Of a DNA stretch of 64,000 nucleotides, positions 44,057-64,000 are shown one piece after another. Position 1 is the first letter of the stretch. Every line of letters starts with the position of its first letter. Origin of the DNA: Pyropia yezoensis (Eukaryota > Rhodophyta > Bangiophyceae > Bangiales > Bangiaceae). The position numbers were made by a program, and so were the translations under genes. The stretch spans positions 30,356,894-30,420,893 of the forward strand of contig CM020618.1 in NCBI GenBank assembly GCA_009829735.1, in the 5' to 3' direction. The notes under the pieces are model-generated. The model ran no database searches and had not been told where the DNA came from. It worked only from the letters and a program-made list of their open reading frames with translations.

Positions 44057-45600
44057 CTACTGCGCCTTGGCTGCCCGCAGCGCCGCCGTATCTGGTCGTT
44101 GCAGCGTCGAGCCCGCCCGCGGCGGCCGCGCGGCGACCCCCCGCAGGGAGCTGTAGCCCGCGGCGAGCGTGGGCGGCGCCAGCAACGCCAGCGCGCCAAA
44201 GGTGGTCGTCAGCCGCCAGCCCACCCAGAAGCGCACCAGCACGGCCGCCACGCCAACGAGGCACGCCCCAAACGCCGTCGTCGATAGCGTCAAGGCTGGC
44301 GAGGGGGACGCGTCACCGCCGGCGCCGCCGCGCTCCACCGCCATGGCGCCCGGCCGGGTGGCCAGGGCGACAGCAAACGCCGCCAGCGGCGCCAGCACCG
44401 CGGCGACCGCCACGGCAACCACCACGAACGGGGGTCCCCGCCGGGGGGGCGGCATGGGGGCGTCAAACTCCGGGAGCAGCCCGTGGGGCACCCGCAGGTC
44501 AAACTCAAAGACGCCAGGTGTGCGAGTCGACGGCCGCCGATGGGTGGAGGAGGCCCCCAGCGAGGCTGCCGAGGAGGCCGTCCACGTGACGCCGCGGGGG
44601 ATGGCGGCGTCGCCAATCAAGACCGTCCACACGTAGGTGGTGTCCGGCGTCCAGAAGGACGGGTTCGCTGCCATCAAGCGTTTCAATGACTGCAAGTGTG
44701 GAGGGGAGAGGAATCAAAAGCAGTCACCAAAATAAAATGCCAGGAGAGCCATGAGGTTCGTACGTCCCGAGTCGAGGGTTCTTGAGTGTGAGTGGTTGTA
44801 CAAAGAAAGCGGGTTGGCTGCCCACGAAAAGGACGGCACAACCAGTAGCAACCGCACAGGTAGAATAGGCTTAGCGCCAGCACGGCACCAGCGCCCACCA
44901 CCCTGATCACTTGGCGACGACCACCCCCCCCCCCGGCCTCCCCGTTCTCAAAGCCGCCTCCAAAACGCACCAGTTCCAAGTGCATCTCCTCCCCCCGGGG
45001 CTTCATCACGTGCACGCTCTGGCGCTCCCCCCCCGCCCCCCCCTCCCCCCCGCGCCGGACAAACCGCACAAACGCCTGCGCGGGCGCCAGCGGCTCCCCC
45101 GCCCCATCCACCACTGCTGCCCGGACGGTGAGGCTGTCCCCATCATCCAGCTGCAGAGGTGGCCCCGGTGCGGTCGTATCCACCATCCCCGCATCCGATA
45201 CGCGGGCGGCCAGGCGGTGGCGCGCGACGCGCTCGGGCCCCGCCGCGTAACTGACCCGCGCGGACAGGGCGGTGACTCGGCCAGCGGGGGGTGCGGCCGC
45301 CGCGGCCGCAGCATCCGCGGCCGCCGCCACGTCGGACGCAGCGTCCGCGGCAGAGGCGGCCGCCGCTTCCTCGGCAGCCGCGGCCGCCGCGTCGGCCGCG
45401 GCGGCGGCGGCCGCCGCTGCAGCCGCCGACGCATCCACGGCAGCCGCCGCCGCGGCATCTGCCGCCGCGGCAGCGTTCTCCGACGAATCCGCATCGCCGC
45501 CGTCAGTGGCGGCGGCGGTGGGCGCGCGGGCGGCCACCGCCAGCAGGGCCACGACGCCCAGCGAGAGCGCGAGCGACCGCGCCAGCCGCCGCCGCGCCAT
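44057..45600 (-). CDS. RPN2: Ribophorin II / Swp1 subunit of oligosaccharyltransferase (2 exons)
   Basis: A non-catalytic subunit of the ER oligosaccharyltransferase that N-glycosylates nascent proteins. Exon 1 45600-44971 and exon 2 44689-44057, phase 0, 420 residues, ending in TAG. The 281-bp intron (44690-44970) has donor GTGCGT and acceptor CTTGCAG. The N-terminus is a signal peptide (MARRRLARSLALSLGVVALL), followed by an Asp/Ala-rich segment of about 75 residues. The lumenal beta-rich part contains VHVMKPRGEEMHLELS and TTYVWTVLIGD. LPEFDAPMPPPRRGPPF corresponds to the family's F-x-x-P-E-K-R-P-P motif before the membrane region. Three hydrophobic segments follow. The length lies between yeast Swp1 and human RPN2. 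Family assignment is good on architecture; per-residue identity is low. Confidence 0.8.
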
Positions 45601-57687: not shown

Positions 57688-58020
57688 GACGCCGCGGGGG
57701 GGGGAGGCCCGGGGCACGACGAGGGGTGGGGGGGTGGGGAGGTGGGCAATGACGCGCACGGCAGGGCCAAGCTGCCGCCGCCGCACGAGGAGGCGATACA
57801 GGTGACGCGGCCGACGGGTCCGAAGCACGCTAGGGAAAGCGCGCGGTCGCGCCACGGGCGGCTGGGGGGGCACTAGGATACGACTGGCCGTAGGCAGCAG
57901 CGGGACGTCCCAGACCAGGTGCGGTTTTGAATTTTCGAACGGGTAGCATGACATGATCAATGGAAGCCCGCCTCCCCGAGAGAGGATCATAGCGAAGCCC
58001 TCTCAGAGATTCCTACGCTA
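57688..58020. other. Spacer between WRAP73 start and Fanzor 3' end
   Basis: Serves as the WRAP73 upstream region. Contains the hairpin motif at 57956-58000. It is AT-richer than the flanks around 57925-57960. Confidence 0.5.
57956..58000 (-). repeat. Hairpin motif just beyond the Fanzor stop codon (candidate element end / guide-RNA scaffold)
   Basis: On the minus strand it reads GGGCTTCGCTAT, then CCTC-loop-GAGG, then GGGCTTCCATTGAT. It begins 20 bp past the TGA of the Fanzor frame. The same outer blocks occur at 8569-8616 with a longer stem. In TnpB/Fanzor elements the guide RNA is transcribed from this side of the gene, which makes the position notable. Function is inference. Confidence 0.45.
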
Positions 58021-58149
58021 TCACTGATGAACTGCGCGACAATTGCCCCCGCCGTCGCCGGCAGGGCTCGTCGCTGTGCGGGAAAAGGCAGTGGCCCCGT
58101 CCAGAGCCCTCACCGAGACGAGTTTGGTTGTCGCCCGGACAGGGTTGGT

Positions 58150-58240
58150 AGTACCGCCACCGCCTCCACCGCCTCTATCGCCTCCACCGTCACCGCCTCC
58201 ACCGCCACCGCCTCCACCGCCACCGCCTCCACCGCCAGCA
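58150..58240 (-). repeat. Gly-codon minisatellite in the Fanzor 3' end
   Basis: On the plus strand, ACCGCCTCCACCGCC repeated with period 15 (three clear copies, 58191-58235) plus diverged copies. It translates to a poly-Gly run between the RuvC-III region and the C-terminus. Confidence 0.75.
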
Positions 58241-61200
58241 CTGTCCGACACAAGCCACGGCGGGTGCCACTCCGACTTCGTGTCTCGGGACCACTGGGCA
58301 GTAGCCGCCAGAGGCTGACGAGGGTGACAATTGCGGAAAAAGGGAGACATAGACCGCCCCAACAATGAACTGACCGCCACCTGCGCGATGTTGCACGCCG
58401 CGTTCTTGTCCCGGTTGAGGTGAAGCCGACCACAGTCGGGGTTGACACACTTCTTCACGGACCAGCACGCCAGCTCCTCATAGCCGCCAGAGCGCTTGCC
58501 ACTGACCAAAATCTTGGCCAAGCGCTCCCGCGCCTCGCCGGCATCGCGCTCCTCTGTTCGTCCTCGCCGTGTCACGTCCCGCGGGGAGCACCCCCCGCGG
58601 CCGTCGCATCCGCGACGCCCCTTGGCCGCCCTCCGCCGGCGCGCCACCTCCTTGCACTTGCTGCCGTCTGCGTCACCAGGCGCCTACGCCGCACACTGCG
58701 CCACGTTTATGACCTGCCGACTGTCATCCGGGGAGAGGTCGATGGGGTAGACGAGCACCAGCCGACAGTGGCAGTCGGCACAGGTCTGCGACGAGCTGTA
58801 CTCGTCTTGGGTGGCAAGGAAGCACCCCCGCGCTACTCGGTGCCTCAAGGCCGTCGCCCCACCCCTCGTCGCTACTGCCCCCCACACCACAAAGACGGCC
58901 TTGCCGTTCACGATGCGGCGACCATACCCGCCGCTCAGATCCCGTGCGACCTTGGCCGTGAACCGTCCACGCTGCCCATGGCGGTGGACGCGGGCCTTGC
59001 GTTGCGGCCGCAAAGCGTCTTTGCCATAGGCACCAGCATAGTCGTCAGTGCTGCGATAGGCAGCCCAGGTCAAGGCGGCTGCCGCCCAGTCCAGCAACGT
59101 CGGCTGCTTGAGGGGCGTACCCTCAAAGAGGTCTTCTGGAGTGGCCTTGGAGCCGGCTTGCCGGCTGGCCTCCCACACCGCCCGCCACGAGGCCTGCGCC
59201 CTCGCCATGATCTCCGCCCGACTGCTTGGGATACGCAGCACTGCTCACAGACAGTGTTGCCCCCCGAGGCAGACGAGTGGGGGGGCGTGATGGCGGGTGT
59301 CGCCGTCGTCCCTGCCACCGCCGTCGACGGGAGCCCTCCCCGTGCGCCCCGGCAGTCTCGTCGTCCCCCGCTGCCCGCATCGCGTCTGCACACAGCGTGT
59401 CAATGAGCCACGCAAACGCGCCCGTCTGGGCGAGCTCCTCCCGCGCCTCCTTGGGGAGCTCGGCACGCGCAGCCGGACTGGCCGTTGCCACGGATCCCCG
59501 GCGTTTGCGCTACGACCGCCGGCGCCGCCGGGACCGGGAGACCGTGCCCGCCTCTGCCGCGGTACCACGAACGGCAGCACTACCACTCGCAGTCGCGACG
59601 CCTTGATCCACCTCCCCTGCCAAGGATGCACTACCGTTGACGTTGACCGGCCCCCCCGCACTGGCGACCGACTCGCCCCCGATAGCGGCGGCAGCCGCGT
59701 CGTCTGCCACAGCCGAGGATGGCAGCTTCTTGGTCTTCTTCCGGGTACCGCGTACGACAGACAGGGGCGACAGGGCTGCCCGCCTTGCTTGTGCCGCAGT
59801 CTTTATCGCCTGGGCCTGCGATGGTGCGGCGACAGCGGCGGCCAGCCGGCTCAGCGCGCGCGCCGCCCGCGCCAGGGAGTGGCCTGCGACCTTCCATGCC
59901 CGCTCCGACCGGTACGCAAACACATGTGGCGACGGGACGACCACAAGGTCGGGATCCAGGCCCAGCCAGTAGGCCGTGTAGATGTCATTGACCCCCGGGT
60001 CCACGCCCACCACACACTTCTTGACCGTCCCGTCAAGGGGCAGCCCCATGACGGCCACCTGGTGCTCCAGACTGGTCACCCCGCCGCCCAACTTGGTCCC
60101 GTTGCCGCCCTGCAGTCGTCGGGCCTGGTGCGCTTGCGCGGCCGTCACCTCGGCCGCGTCGGCGGGCCACTCCAGGGTAACGACGATACCCGTCCCGTCA
60201 GTAACAACGGACGTGCGAAAGTTGGACCGCCTTGTACGCACCCCGGCGCAGGCGGCCAGCTTGGCGACACCGGCACTCCCATTCGTGCCGCGACCCACCG
60301 CCATCAGGGGGTGCACCTCGCTAATCCCCGGGTGTCAGACGAGTTCAGCCCTTTCCATCGCCCGCCGCATCAGCGTCGGGGTGACGTGCGCGTAGTGACA
60401 GAGGTCGGGTGCGAGACGCGGAAAGACCGCATATGATGCGCGCTTCCGCGACAAGAGGAGGTGCTGCACCTCTATGCGGAGGGGAAGAAAAAGCAGCCAG
60501 CACCCCTAGCGGCGCGTTTCGGGGAGGGTGATGGCCACCTCCGCGCCGACCTTCATCGACAGCACGCGCGGGAAGATGGCCTTGAGTTCTGCGGCGATCT
60601 GCTGCCGTACGAGGGGTGGCGCCCCCGCCGGCCACGAGCCGTCCTTGACCTTGTCGGCACCCCCTATCATCGTGTCGGCGATGAACCTTGTAAGTTTGCC
60701 GCGGAGGGCGCGACGCTCACGGTCTTTAGCGCGGCCCGCAGGGGTGGACGCCTGCGCCTGCACCTGCGCGGTCGAGGGTGGATGTGGTAACAGCTCAGCC
60801 GCTTGCAGGGCGTCATCGACCATCACATCGGCAAGGCACGTCTCTGCCGTTTCTGCCGTGCGCGCCACGTGTACCGAGATGGTTATGGCCGCCGTCTTGA
60901 ACGCAAGGGAATCGCCCAGGCTTGGCAGGTCCTTGGGGCAAGGCAGCGGCGCCTCTTTTCGAACCTTAGACATGAAGCGGGCATAGGCGGTTGCTAACGC
61001 CTTGCCGCCCAGCCCGTCGCCAGCAAAGGCCGACTCACGGGGGTGCTTTGGCGTGAGAGCCTGGCAGGATCCAGAGAGCTCGCCATCGGGGCGCTGTGCC
61101 ACCGCGGCGCCGCGACACAAGGTTGCCGCCGCGGCCCACCTGAACAGCGGCGGGTGGCTGCCGCTTGCCAGCGCCAAGGGTAGGGCGTCGACAAACTCCA

Positions 61201-61565
61201 GCATCAAGGCCTTGGCCAGGTAGACGGACCGAAGAGCATACTCAATGCCTAGCGTCATCAGGTACCTGTGGCGGGTGGCCGTTGCGGCCAGTGACTAGAG
61301 CGCGCGGCCCAGCGCATGGGCCACCGCCGGGTGCCCGACCGTCTTGCGCGGCCGCGTCGGCGGCCCGCCCCGACCACCATTGTCGTTGACGCTTGTGGTG
61401 CGCTCTGCCGCCCCCCCTCCGGATGGAGCCGTTGCCAGTGGGCGCGTCGCCCCAACGCGGGCCAGTGGGAGTTGCACCGATGCGTGCACCTTGTACTTTT
61501 CCCATGGCGTGCAGGTCGGCAGCGTCGACGCCGAGACCCCAGTCGCCACCGGCGGGGACCGCCTG

Positions 61566-61607
61566 TCAGGTGCGCGCCGTGTGCCCAGCTTTGTGACACT
61601 TGCCGCA
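61566..61607 (-). other. CCHC zinc knuckle 2 with its last Cys codon replaced by TGA
   Basis: CGKCHKAGHTART is followed by TGA exactly where C-x2-C-x4-H-x4-C needs its fourth ligand. TGC or TGT to TGA is one base change. This is direct evidence of a nonsense mutation and argues against an intron. Confidence 0.8.
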
Positions 61608-61715
61608 CGTCGGGGCCTTGCGGCCTGGTTTGCGCACCGCACCGTCTTCCAAGGCCGTCAATGCGCTGGGCTTGACCGCCGCGGCGCGTGCCGCGACCAC
61701 GTCTTGCTGTGCGTC

Positions 61716-61757
61716 ACAGGTGCGTACGTAGTGACTTGCCAAGCCGCACCAGGAGCA
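61716..61757 (-). other. CCHC zinc knuckle 1
   Basis: CSWCGLASHYVRTC, a perfect C-x2-C-x4-H-x4-C gag-type knuckle, flanked by a Lys/Arg block. It lies in the open frame upstream of the Fanzor core. Confidence 0.85.
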
Positions 61758-62497
61758 CTTGCGCTTTCCAGCGCTGGTCGTGTTGCCCACGGCAGCCTCA
61801 CCGGGCGCGTGCGCCTCTGCGGCCGGACGAGCGGTGCCCCGGGCCGGCGGCGTCGTACGGGCTGCCAGGCGACGGGCAGCCTGGCCAGACGCGGCCGTCG
61901 CCGTGCCCGCCCGGTCGCCCATCTCGTCCACGTCGGCGGGCACAGTGCCCTGCTGGCGGTCGACGACGTCGGCCACCGCCTCGGCCGTCACCACAGCACA
62001 TTGCACCACACAGGCAGTTGCGTCCACCGCGTTGTCGCTCTCAGAGAGGACACTGTCGGTAGCCGAGGGTTCATCCTGGGGCACACCATGCCCAATGGAC
62101 GTGAGCGCGTGCTGGGACTGGATCAGTTGGGCATGTAGGTTTGACTACCCCATCTCTTGCGCCGCCGCCATCGCCCCAGCCACCTCGTACGCAGCTCCTC
62201 CGACTGTTTCCTAAAGCCGCTGTCCTCTTCCAAAGAGTCATCGTCGTCCTCAAGAAGACTTGGAGCGTCGGCGCCACGTTTGCGTGAAGCAGCGTGGACG
62301 GCGGAATGACCGCTGCTCTCCTCGCTGCCGCAGGTGCACGCCCTACCACAGCCGCCACCGCAAGCGGCATCGTCGTCGCCACCGGCATCGTCCTCGGCGT
62401 CGGGCGCCTCCTCGTCACTCGTGTTCCAGTCGTTTAGCGCGGCGGCCTGAGCGGATCCATCCATCCCATCGTCATCGTCGTCACTGTACTCGGACAT

Positions 62498-63668
62498 GAC
62501 CCGTCCACGAGAAGAGTCAGATGTCGGGGGGGGGGGGGGAGAAAGGAAGGGGGGAGGGGGGGGGGGGGGGGGGGGGGGGGCGGCGGGGTGGGGAGTGGAA
62601 GCGCGCACACCTCACGAGCCGCCGTCTGCGAGTCCCTTTACGATGACCACAGCCAGTGCCGCTCCCTCATATCGTGCCAACAACAGGAAGGCCGCTGCCC
62701 CCAGCTGACCGCTAGACTCGACAGCTGTGGGAGACGACGCAGTGCACGGCCGCGCGCACCGCATGCCCTGTGACAGGCGTGCCGACTGACACAGTGGCTC
62801 TTGGGCGGCTCGCCATGCCATGGTGCGCGAGAGGGCCTCGCCGGGGAAAGACCGTCGTGGTGCCCCGAGGACGATCTGCGGCTGCCCAGTCCCAGTCGCA
62901 TGGCGTTGCACGGTTCGCCCCGGTGCAGGACAGTGTGTCGTGTCTGGGCGAGCAAGCCCTGCACTTGGGGCTCTGGATAGAGCCCGCCCGCTTGTGGCGC
63001 ACGACGTACGACGTGGAATACGAGCAGGCTCCTGGGTCGGGCTGGGCCGGGCGTCGGCGTCTTGCCCCGCAAACACCCCGCCGGCTGGTCCCGGTCCCGG
63101 TGCGCCCCCCACTGCAGCCGTCGCCGCACCCTGGCCGACGGCTGGGCGGAGCCCACCCGTCGCCCCCGCTGCCCCTACCATCACCGCCACTACCACAGTG
63201 GCCGCTTCAGCCGCTGCTGGCTGGCGACGGGCCACCGGCCGCTGCCGGCGCCGGCAGGTTGTCGGCCGCGGCCAGCACGTCGTACGACGCCGCCATTGAC
63301 GACGCGTCCTCGCGTAGCGCCACCCCAACCGCCACAGGATGTCGATTGTTGCTCGTCGCGCGGTGGCGGGGGGGGGAGGGCGGGGGAAAGGGGGGGGAGG
63401 GGGGGGGACGACGGGCGGGAAGCAATCCCCGCCACCAACGACCAACCCCCCCACCATTCAGGACACCGCCTTTGCCACCCAGACACCTTCAGCCGACGGG
63501 TGCAGCCCCCAGCGCGGCTTCCACCGCTGCCCAGCGCCCACCGGTAGGACAAGTGCCGCCCTACATGGACTGCGTACGTCGTCTGGCCAGTTAATCCAAC
63601 GGAGGAACGGCGGCATGCCCCTAAAACTGCCTTGGACAGGCCAGCATGCCCCCTACACGGGATTGGGG
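62498..63668. other. Fanzor upstream flank; poly-G runs; uncertain plus-strand frame
   Basis: Begins with long G-runs (62525-62538, 62554-62580). A plus-strand frame from 62770 to 63594 (274 codons) starts with fairly protein-like residues (VARFAPVQDSVSCLGEQALH, then LWIEPARLWRTTYDVEYEQ) and then turns to Pro/Ala low complexity. The minus strand is also open. No family recognised; it could be part of the same mobile element. Confidence 0.3.
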
Positions 63669-64000
63669 CCTGCCGGCAAGCCGCGTACATGGATTGGGGC
63701 CTGCCGGCAGGCCACCTATTTTGAATTGGGCAGGCCGGCAGGCCACCTACAATGCGTGAGGCAGGCCGGCAGGCCACCGTCATTCAAATGCACAGGCCGG
63801 CAGGCCACCTACAACGCATTGGGCAGGCCGACAGGCCACCGACATTGGAATACACAGGCCGGCAGGCCACCTCCAATGCGTTGGGCAGGCCGGCAAGCCA
63901 CCGACATTGAAACGCACAGGCCGGCAGGCCACCTGCAATGCGTTGGGCAGGCCGGCAAGCCACCGACGTTGAAATGCACAGGCCGGCAGGCCACCGACTT
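63669..64000. repeat. 31-bp tandem satellite, running off the window
   Basis: The core CAGGCCGGCAGGCCACC recurs at 63731, 63762, 63793, 63824, 63855, 63886, 63917, 63948 and 63979, exactly every 31 bp, with diverged units at 63700 and 63669. The 14-bp remainder alternates between a TACAATGCGTTGGG type and a GACATTGAAATGCA type, so the higher-order unit is 62 bp. The core holds the near-palindrome GGCCGGCAGGCC. The short open frames across it are only translations of the repeat. Confidence 0.95.

Follow-up and report, generated by a model that had tools for sequence, protein, structure and literature searches.

Pyropia yezoensis (Rhodophyta; Bangiales) carries a locus that is very probably a Fanzor1-type DNA transposon that has decayed, a copy of what we call family W, from a lineage of oversized Fanzors in this alga. 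It lies in a 64,000-nucleotide stretch of contig CM020618.1 (assembly GCA_009829735.1, positions 30,356,894 to 30,420,893 of the forward strand), hereafter the window, the first letter of which is position 1. The data that support this reading are the fingerprint and conservation of the encoded protein, an exact right end, a predicted structure at that end, many genomic copies, the decay of the window copy and the existence of relatives with long reading frames. An initial annotation, made from the letters alone, had placed a Fanzor RNA-guided nuclease locus at 58021..62497. The locus is still best read as a decayed Fanzor, in a red alga whose nuclear genome is GC-rich, on the basis of fingerprint, conservation and anatomy; the extent of the element has to be revised, as described below.

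The fingerprinted protein encoded at 62497-58024 (minus strand) is genuine, decayed and of Fanzor type. The motifs named by the initial annotation are all found, on that one strand and in the order given: TDG, DPG, a glutamate six residues ahead of the first CxxC, and NRDxNAA. The TDG motif (VVTDGTGIVV) lies within the open reading frame (ORF) 60334-59510 (minus), and the DPG codons of VGVDPG start at 60001. The RuvC-II/zinc motif DEYSSSQTCADC, which includes EYSSSQTCADC, has its glutamate at 58803, and the RuvC-III motif CVNPDCGRLHLNRDKNAACNI has NRD at 58416, all on the minus strand. We compared motif counts with those in first-order Markov sequences of window length (60 runs). The strict RuvC-II pattern DE[FYH]x[ST][ST]xxCxxC and the strict RuvC-III pattern NRDxx[AG][AC] each occur once in the six frames of the window, the control means being 0.0 and 0.18, respectively. 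Simpler motifs are uninformative singly: DPG is seen 12 times for 49 expected, E-x6-CxxC twice for 2.1 expected, and a loose zinc/RuvC-III pattern four times for 5.1 expected.

The motifs stand; the single open frame does not. Comparison with a sibling copy elsewhere in the genome, L041, divides the window copy into four overlapping pieces (62497-62210, 62204-61404, 61642-59210 and 59553-58024, all on the minus strand) that occupy three frames and contain in-frame stops; the window copy also lacks, near 62213 (element position 428/429), a block of ~0.5 kb present in other copies. L041 itself retains a single frame with 7 stops in 1,666 codons. Read in the direction of translation on the minus strand, the window copy starts with an acidic N-terminus at the first ATG (62210..62497, MSEYSDDDDDG), which has a counterpart in the acidic start of the related family Y (MNDDDDGSDQD). 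There follow an open piece at 61566..62144 in which the translation can be read as N-terminal CCHC zinc knuckles, CSWCGLASHYVRTC and, interrupted by a stop in this copy, CGKCHKAGHTART, and an open piece at 60506..61294 that is co-linear with family Y and presumably corresponds to the REC region. The piece at 59510..60334 holds the WED-domain TDG motif and RuvC-I (VGVDPGVNDI, DPG at 59993..60001) and is matched by 21 rows in the genome; the piece at 58684..59244 holds RuvC-II and the first zinc pair (58771..58806) and is matched by 112. The second zinc pair and RuvC-III, CVNPDCGRLHLNRDKNAA, lie at 58396..58449. Both zinc pairs that the initial annotation had read are thus present; they are a CxxC and a CX4C separated by ~107 residues and therefore do not form an ordinary TnpB zinc ribbon.

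Conservation was assessed in an alignment (A1) that represents three families by four sequences (W and Z once each, Y-type twice), with 31-36% identity to the first row. DPG, the DE of RuvC-II, the first CxxC and NRD, among them the catalytic residues D43, E443 and D574, are invariant in all four sequences; one additional 'invariant' cysteine is an artefact of a misplaced gap. A1 likewise misplaces the second cysteine pair, which we matched by eye: it is CX4C in W, Z and the public relative P0004, CxxC in Y and a single cysteine in P0003. A published account names the combination of DPG with a glutamate six residues ahead of the zinc motif as the molecular fingerprint of Fanzors, and the TDG motif of the WED domain as a characteristic feature of Fanzor1 (PMC10711439). 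DPG is present at window position 60001, and the glutamate at this distance from CxxC is present in the window, Y, Z (L040), P0003 and P0004. TDG is found in the window (VVTDGTGI) and in Y (LSTDGVAV), with TNG in its place in Z (L040) and P0004. The RuvC-III aspartate after the second zinc pair, expected of Fanzor1, is part of the invariant NRD.

Several observations weigh against the assignment. The spacings are unusual: DPG and the glutamate are ~400 residues apart in both L041 and Y, and the zinc pairs ~107 (W) or 110 (Y), compared with DPG-x(120-160)-E and x(12-18) in a published search pattern, which is not given as a requirement (PMC10711439). An earlier Fanzor motif, D-X(125,275)-[TS][TS]xx-C4 zinc finger-X(5,50)-RD (PMC3627910), is matched in the order and identity of its residues and missed in its first spacing (~400). 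Judged by eye, the second zinc pair of Y is not a CX4C, and P0003 has only a single cysteine at that place. The Y protein, at 1,403 amino acids, lies outside the usual Fanzor1 size: most are 600-700 amino acids long (PMC11423790) and some reach ~800 (PMC10711439), size being descriptive and not defining in these papers. The initial annotation had proposed a profile search, which gave a divided answer: PF07282 is the top match for two window pieces and matches all four members of A1 (best E 2.2e-4), at a best score of 21.8 bits that stays under the curated cut-off of 26.3. No Pfam or NCBIfam cut-off is reached by these proteins, a search of the whole genome with PF07282 gave no match, and Fanzor was not among the PDB entries retrieved by profile, sequence searches of the PDB being unproductive too. 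NCBIfam and PHROGs gave no useful match for these proteins. With hhalign, the RuvC-II segment aligns to a 23-sequence TnpB profile at a probability of 68.8% (P 4.5e-5), glutamate on glutamate and in the right register; the whole C-terminus reaches 21%, the RuvC-I segment 0.1%, and a comparison with the single TnpB InsQ 3-5%. Both AlphaFold2 models are poor (predicted local distance difference test scores of 31.9 and 42.9). Given the weak profile matches and the lack of a reliable predicted structure, the assignment to Fanzors is based on the fingerprint, on conservation and on anatomy.

These weak family profiles and the very unusual size would also suit some other RNase H-like transposase equipped with zinc knuckles, as would the N-terminal CCHC motif, which is seen in Y (1 in 10,000 shuffled controls) and, by eye, twice in W (L041). 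CCHC motifs occur in some transposases and Gag proteins. The ordered succession of TDG, DPG, the alternative glutamate and NRDxNAA with an invariant D, E and D, the recurrent PF07282 match and the structured right end all argue for a Fanzor instead, and we regard a different transposase as distinctly improbable.

The window copy is a decayed member of family W. The part of the element within the window spans 57956..64000 (minus strand), which is more than the 58021..62497 first assigned to it. Its right end stops at ...CTTCCATTGAT, the last base being 57956. A 95-base right-end query finds 24 matches in the genome, three of which have only the last 36-46 bases, and a right-end pattern with up to 3 mismatches finds 37 (2 for the backwards control). 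The 3' flanks of the 30 of these 37 ends that were read differ from each other, save for the duplicated pair L070/L071. Such an exact right end with unrelated flanks supports the reading as a Fanzor transposon.

The left non-coding region (62640..63632, minus strand) is found in six other places at 78-87% identity, the shared stretch being 62600-63720 among the best 40 of 64 candidates. It is followed by an array of 31/62-bp repeats with GGCCTGCCGGCAGGCC cores (63632..63995, no strand assigned) that was initially described as a flanking satellite. As these repeats recur beside three of the six places that share the left block, the 'satellite' is part of the element itself, its left-end array; read in L093, the repeats extend to about C1:30421294, ~400 bp beyond the window. 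Two blocks of the left region, 63078-63173 and 63201-63258, are present in more than 20 genome places, often paired ~200 bp apart and in swapped order.

Family W copies look dead. They differ almost evenly over codon positions (for example, 81/71/98 between the window and L041), as is expected of dead copies. Not every short fragment is a tiny insertion: judged by their places, L058 is probably the severed terminus of a W copy that an insertion has divided, and L078 is probably an internally deleted copy. At C2:28975092-28984306 a W copy is interrupted by a 9.2-kb gap, the edges of which overlap by 5 bases (element 2012-2016); the gap has the look of a later insertion. Two further W stretches likewise end at element position 2016.

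The last base of the window copy stands one base ahead of the ATG (57952-57956, minus strand) that opens a WD40 gene (ORF 58002-55246, minus). This proximity to a putative start codon of a neighbouring gene is what could be said for co-option of the window copy as a host gene, an idea we consider highly improbable and reject: the copy has three frame changes and several stops, in addition to the near-even codon-position differences.

At the right end we predict a candidate guide-RNA (omegaRNA/reRNA) scaffold, 57956..58076 on the minus strand, made up of a 5' hairpin, a single-stranded linker and a terminal stem that closes over inner hairpins and ends with the element's own ...CTTCCATTGAT. The W scaffold overlaps the end of the L041 reading frame. 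The sense strand of 57957-58075 (the element's last bases minus one) folds with a z-score of -3.90, compared with -0.33 for the antisense strand and -0.85 to +0.91 for seven internal 120-nucleotide windows; elsewhere, the right-end fold has a z-score of -5.07 in L041, -3.36 in Y and +0.48 in L080. The layout is common to W and Y. A hairpin of CGACGAGCC with GGG(C/T)AATTGTCG is followed by a linker ending in GTTC, and the last bases of the element are predicted to pair with those right after the linker, enclosing more hairpins. In W the 5' hairpin (58036..58076, minus strand) is formed by CGACGAGCC and GGGCAATTGTCG, arms that are alike in sequence in W, Y and L080 (alignment A10); it is formed in the folds of W and Y and is missing from the lowest-energy fold of L080. 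At one position of this first hairpin W has a G-C pair where Y has C-G, as seen by eye for a single pair and without statistics.

The terminal stem is predicted in 14 of 19 lowest-energy right-end folds, using a folding model without pseudoknots. Its lack in the other five (L060, L062, L067, L072 and L080) counts against the Fanzor1 reading. Conservation of the W right end is modest, with 8% of 121-column windows equally or more conserved (five copies), and Rfam has no match within the window. Solved Fz1 omegaRNAs have a conserved first stem-loop (PMC11423790), and in the Fanzor1 reRNA a terminal double-stranded stem replaces the pseudoknot of TnpB (PMC10711439); as modelled, the Pyropia right-end layout is what Fanzor1 scaffolds look like. 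L080 (C2:2835230) is a 'ghost' right end: it has diverged, retains both 5'-hairpin arms and has no Fanzor coding match in its 3-kb locus. If the window copy were transcribed, the guide past its scaffold would match the start of the WD40 gene.

The terminal hairpins could instead be transposition signals acting in single-stranded DNA, of the Helitron or Helitron2 kind, with the protein as a passenger. Right ends are indeed commoner than left parts (the right end is reached by 20 of 58 rows, and the left block is present in 7 places, among the best 40 candidates each), which resembles the 5'-truncated Fanzor-Helitrons of Chlamydomonas (PMC3627910). A clear target-site duplication (TSD) was found in just one of 21 copies (L066, identical at 15 of 15 bases; 420 mismatched pairs reached 8 at most), which also agrees with such a mechanism. 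The sample comprised L042 and 20 of the 30 right-end loci, several of which retain just 22-46 bp of the end and may not belong to W; L051, L052, L053, L055, L057, L060 (the place of L042), L065, L069, L071 (the duplicate of L070) and L079 were excluded. The lack of a clear TSD in 20 of 21 copies fits either a TSD-less mechanism or old, eroded TSDs. L066 (C2:17109219-17109240) consists only of the terminal ~35 bp of a W right end, flanked by a perfect 15-bp direct repeat with two extra bases on the left.

Helitrons have CTRR at their 3' terminus, and none of the 30 right ends read carries it. The stretches read contain no Rep/helicase gene, with no search having been aimed at such genes or at transposases. 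An RNA scaffold also fits better with a 5' hairpin that lies ~80 nucleotides inside the end and has similar arms in W, Y and L080. We consequently regard the Helitron-like reading as rather unlikely and prefer that of a Fanzor1-type scaffold, although RNA-scaffold and DNA-signal uses of the right end can be compatible.

The initial annotation suggested that intact relatives may exist elsewhere in this genome, and they do: 20 of the 112 rows that match the RuvC-II piece have frames of at least 1,400 amino acids, 18 of these being stop-free in the matched stretch. The long-frame copies are supplied by family Y (L045 and L046, 95.7% identical over 5.3 kb; protein of 1,403 amino acids), which aligns co-linearly with W and is 29% identical to it. 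When up to 3 mismatches are allowed, the Y right end, ...CCGATAGTT, is found 78 times (control, 0). Between two intact Y copies the nonsynonymous rate (dN, 0.020) is lower than the synonymous rate (dS, 0.060) over 1,395 codons (dN/dS 0.34), and therefore the function of the Y protein has probably been under selection between copies. A block at the Y left end (L045 211-300) is repeated, with a palindromic core GAATTGAATTTCGAATTC and two occurrences in L087, and parallels the W repeat array. A third family, Z (L040-like), is found in 10 places at 47-56% identity to P0004, and further relatives, P0003 to P0006, are present in other public assemblies. At least one copy is publicly annotated only as 'hypothetical protein'. 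P. yezoensis thus has at least three Fanzor-type families, apparently about double the usual Fanzor1 length.

Copies sit on all three chromosome-size contigs, so the initial view that the locus belongs to host DNA holds and bacterial contamination is rejected. A TnpB brought in by contamination or by recent bacterial transfer would share its active site with Fanzors, which have this in common with TnpB; the chromosomal distribution contradicts such an origin, the combination of the alternative glutamate with DPG is rare outside Fanzors (PMC10711439), Y has no match in a phage collection, and P0004 and L041 have none in a plasmid collection. We assign this origin next to no probability. Searching IMG/VR with A1 gave 26 pattern stretches, none of which was confirmed, and DNA patterns there gave 0, 17 and 1 stretches; four of these 18 are TnpB genes with the alternative glutamate and the rest are unrelated. 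These TnpBs (L097, L100, L101 and L109, with relatives in alignment A8) also have the glutamate six residues before the zinc ribbon; unlike the Pyropia proteins they have DLG and not DPG, are ~400 amino acids long and are prokaryotic or from phages.

The closest comparison is with characterized Fanzor1 systems (SpuFz1, GtFz1 and PpFz1; PMC10432273, PMC11423790, PMC10711439). DPG, the alternative RuvC-II glutamate, TDG and NRD are shared, and so is an element-encoded protein; a further common trait, predicted here, is a structured right end that has a first hairpin and, beside the guide, a terminal stem. The Pyropia proteins differ in length (1,403 amino acids for Y, compared with mostly 600-700 and up to ~800), in the ~400 residues from D to E, the ~107-110 between zinc pairs and the N-terminal CCHC knuckle(s), and in giving no sequence-profile match. 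PpFz1 likewise is enlarged inside the RuvC region by an insertion of ~100 amino acids (PMC11423790); in Pyropia, D and E are ~400 residues apart, and enlargement also affects the zinc ribbon and the N-terminus. The Fanzor1-Helitrons CRe-1/2/3 of Chlamydomonas are likewise truncated on the 5' side with the 3' ends kept intact, and they too have hairpins at their ends and a Fanzor1 protein; they terminate as Helitrons do and show many TSDs, 7-19 bp long (PMC3627910), in contrast to the single clear TSD among 21 Pyropia copies, in which no Helitron terminus was seen. Among red algae, Cyanidioschyzon merolae has ~150 Fanzor1 copies, each ~80% identical to the consensus (PMC3627910). This element, CMe-1A, resembles the Pyropia families in being a red-algal Fanzor1 with many diverged copies and no terminal inverted repeat and differs in its ~3-kb consensus, a comparison made by description only. 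Our literature search, whose coverage omits many journals, found no publication pointing to these Pyropia elements. Outside the element, the window also contains a predicted tRNA-Gln (CTG) at 45290-45387 (minus strand), 98 nucleotides and so long enough for an intron.

The way in which such elements would most likely persist can be sketched for a Fanzor1-type transposon. The protein of a working copy would bind RNA transcribed from the right end, an RNA consisting of a ~120-nucleotide scaffold and, after it, a guide that copies the DNA directly beyond the element. The ribonucleoprotein would then recognise and cut the matching empty site beside a short motif, and repair of the break from the element-bearing chromosome would keep or restore the copy; insertion itself would be performed by a transposase, probably acting in trans. 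In this scheme we infer cleavage and homing, the expression of the RNA, the length of the guide, the target motif and the identity of the mobilising transposase. Since the nori genome has numerous younger relatives with long open frames, a working RNA-guided nuclease may still be active in it.

The Fanzor fingerprint is present in these proteins, yet their spacings and size fall outside published ranges and no profile exceeds its cut-off, so that searches with fixed motif spacing or with Pfam can miss a lineage. A cultivated seaweed here carries at least three Fanzor-type families, apparently about twice the usual length of known Fanzor1 proteins, one of which, Y, is young, abundant and, by one intact pair, under purifying selection. 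We tentatively propose, as a possibility that falls short of an even chance, that Pyropia has still-mobile giant Fanzors of ~1,400 amino acids, in which zinc knuckles at the N-terminus bind nucleic acid and the RuvC and zinc domains are enlarged, that these constitute a separate branch overlooked by motif and profile surveys, that they home by guide RNAs from their hairpin right ends, and that dead copies and 'ghost' ends supply extra guides in trans. If functional, these families would be a natural test system for what Fanzors do for transposons, because one genome holds many similar long-frame copies together with matching right ends.

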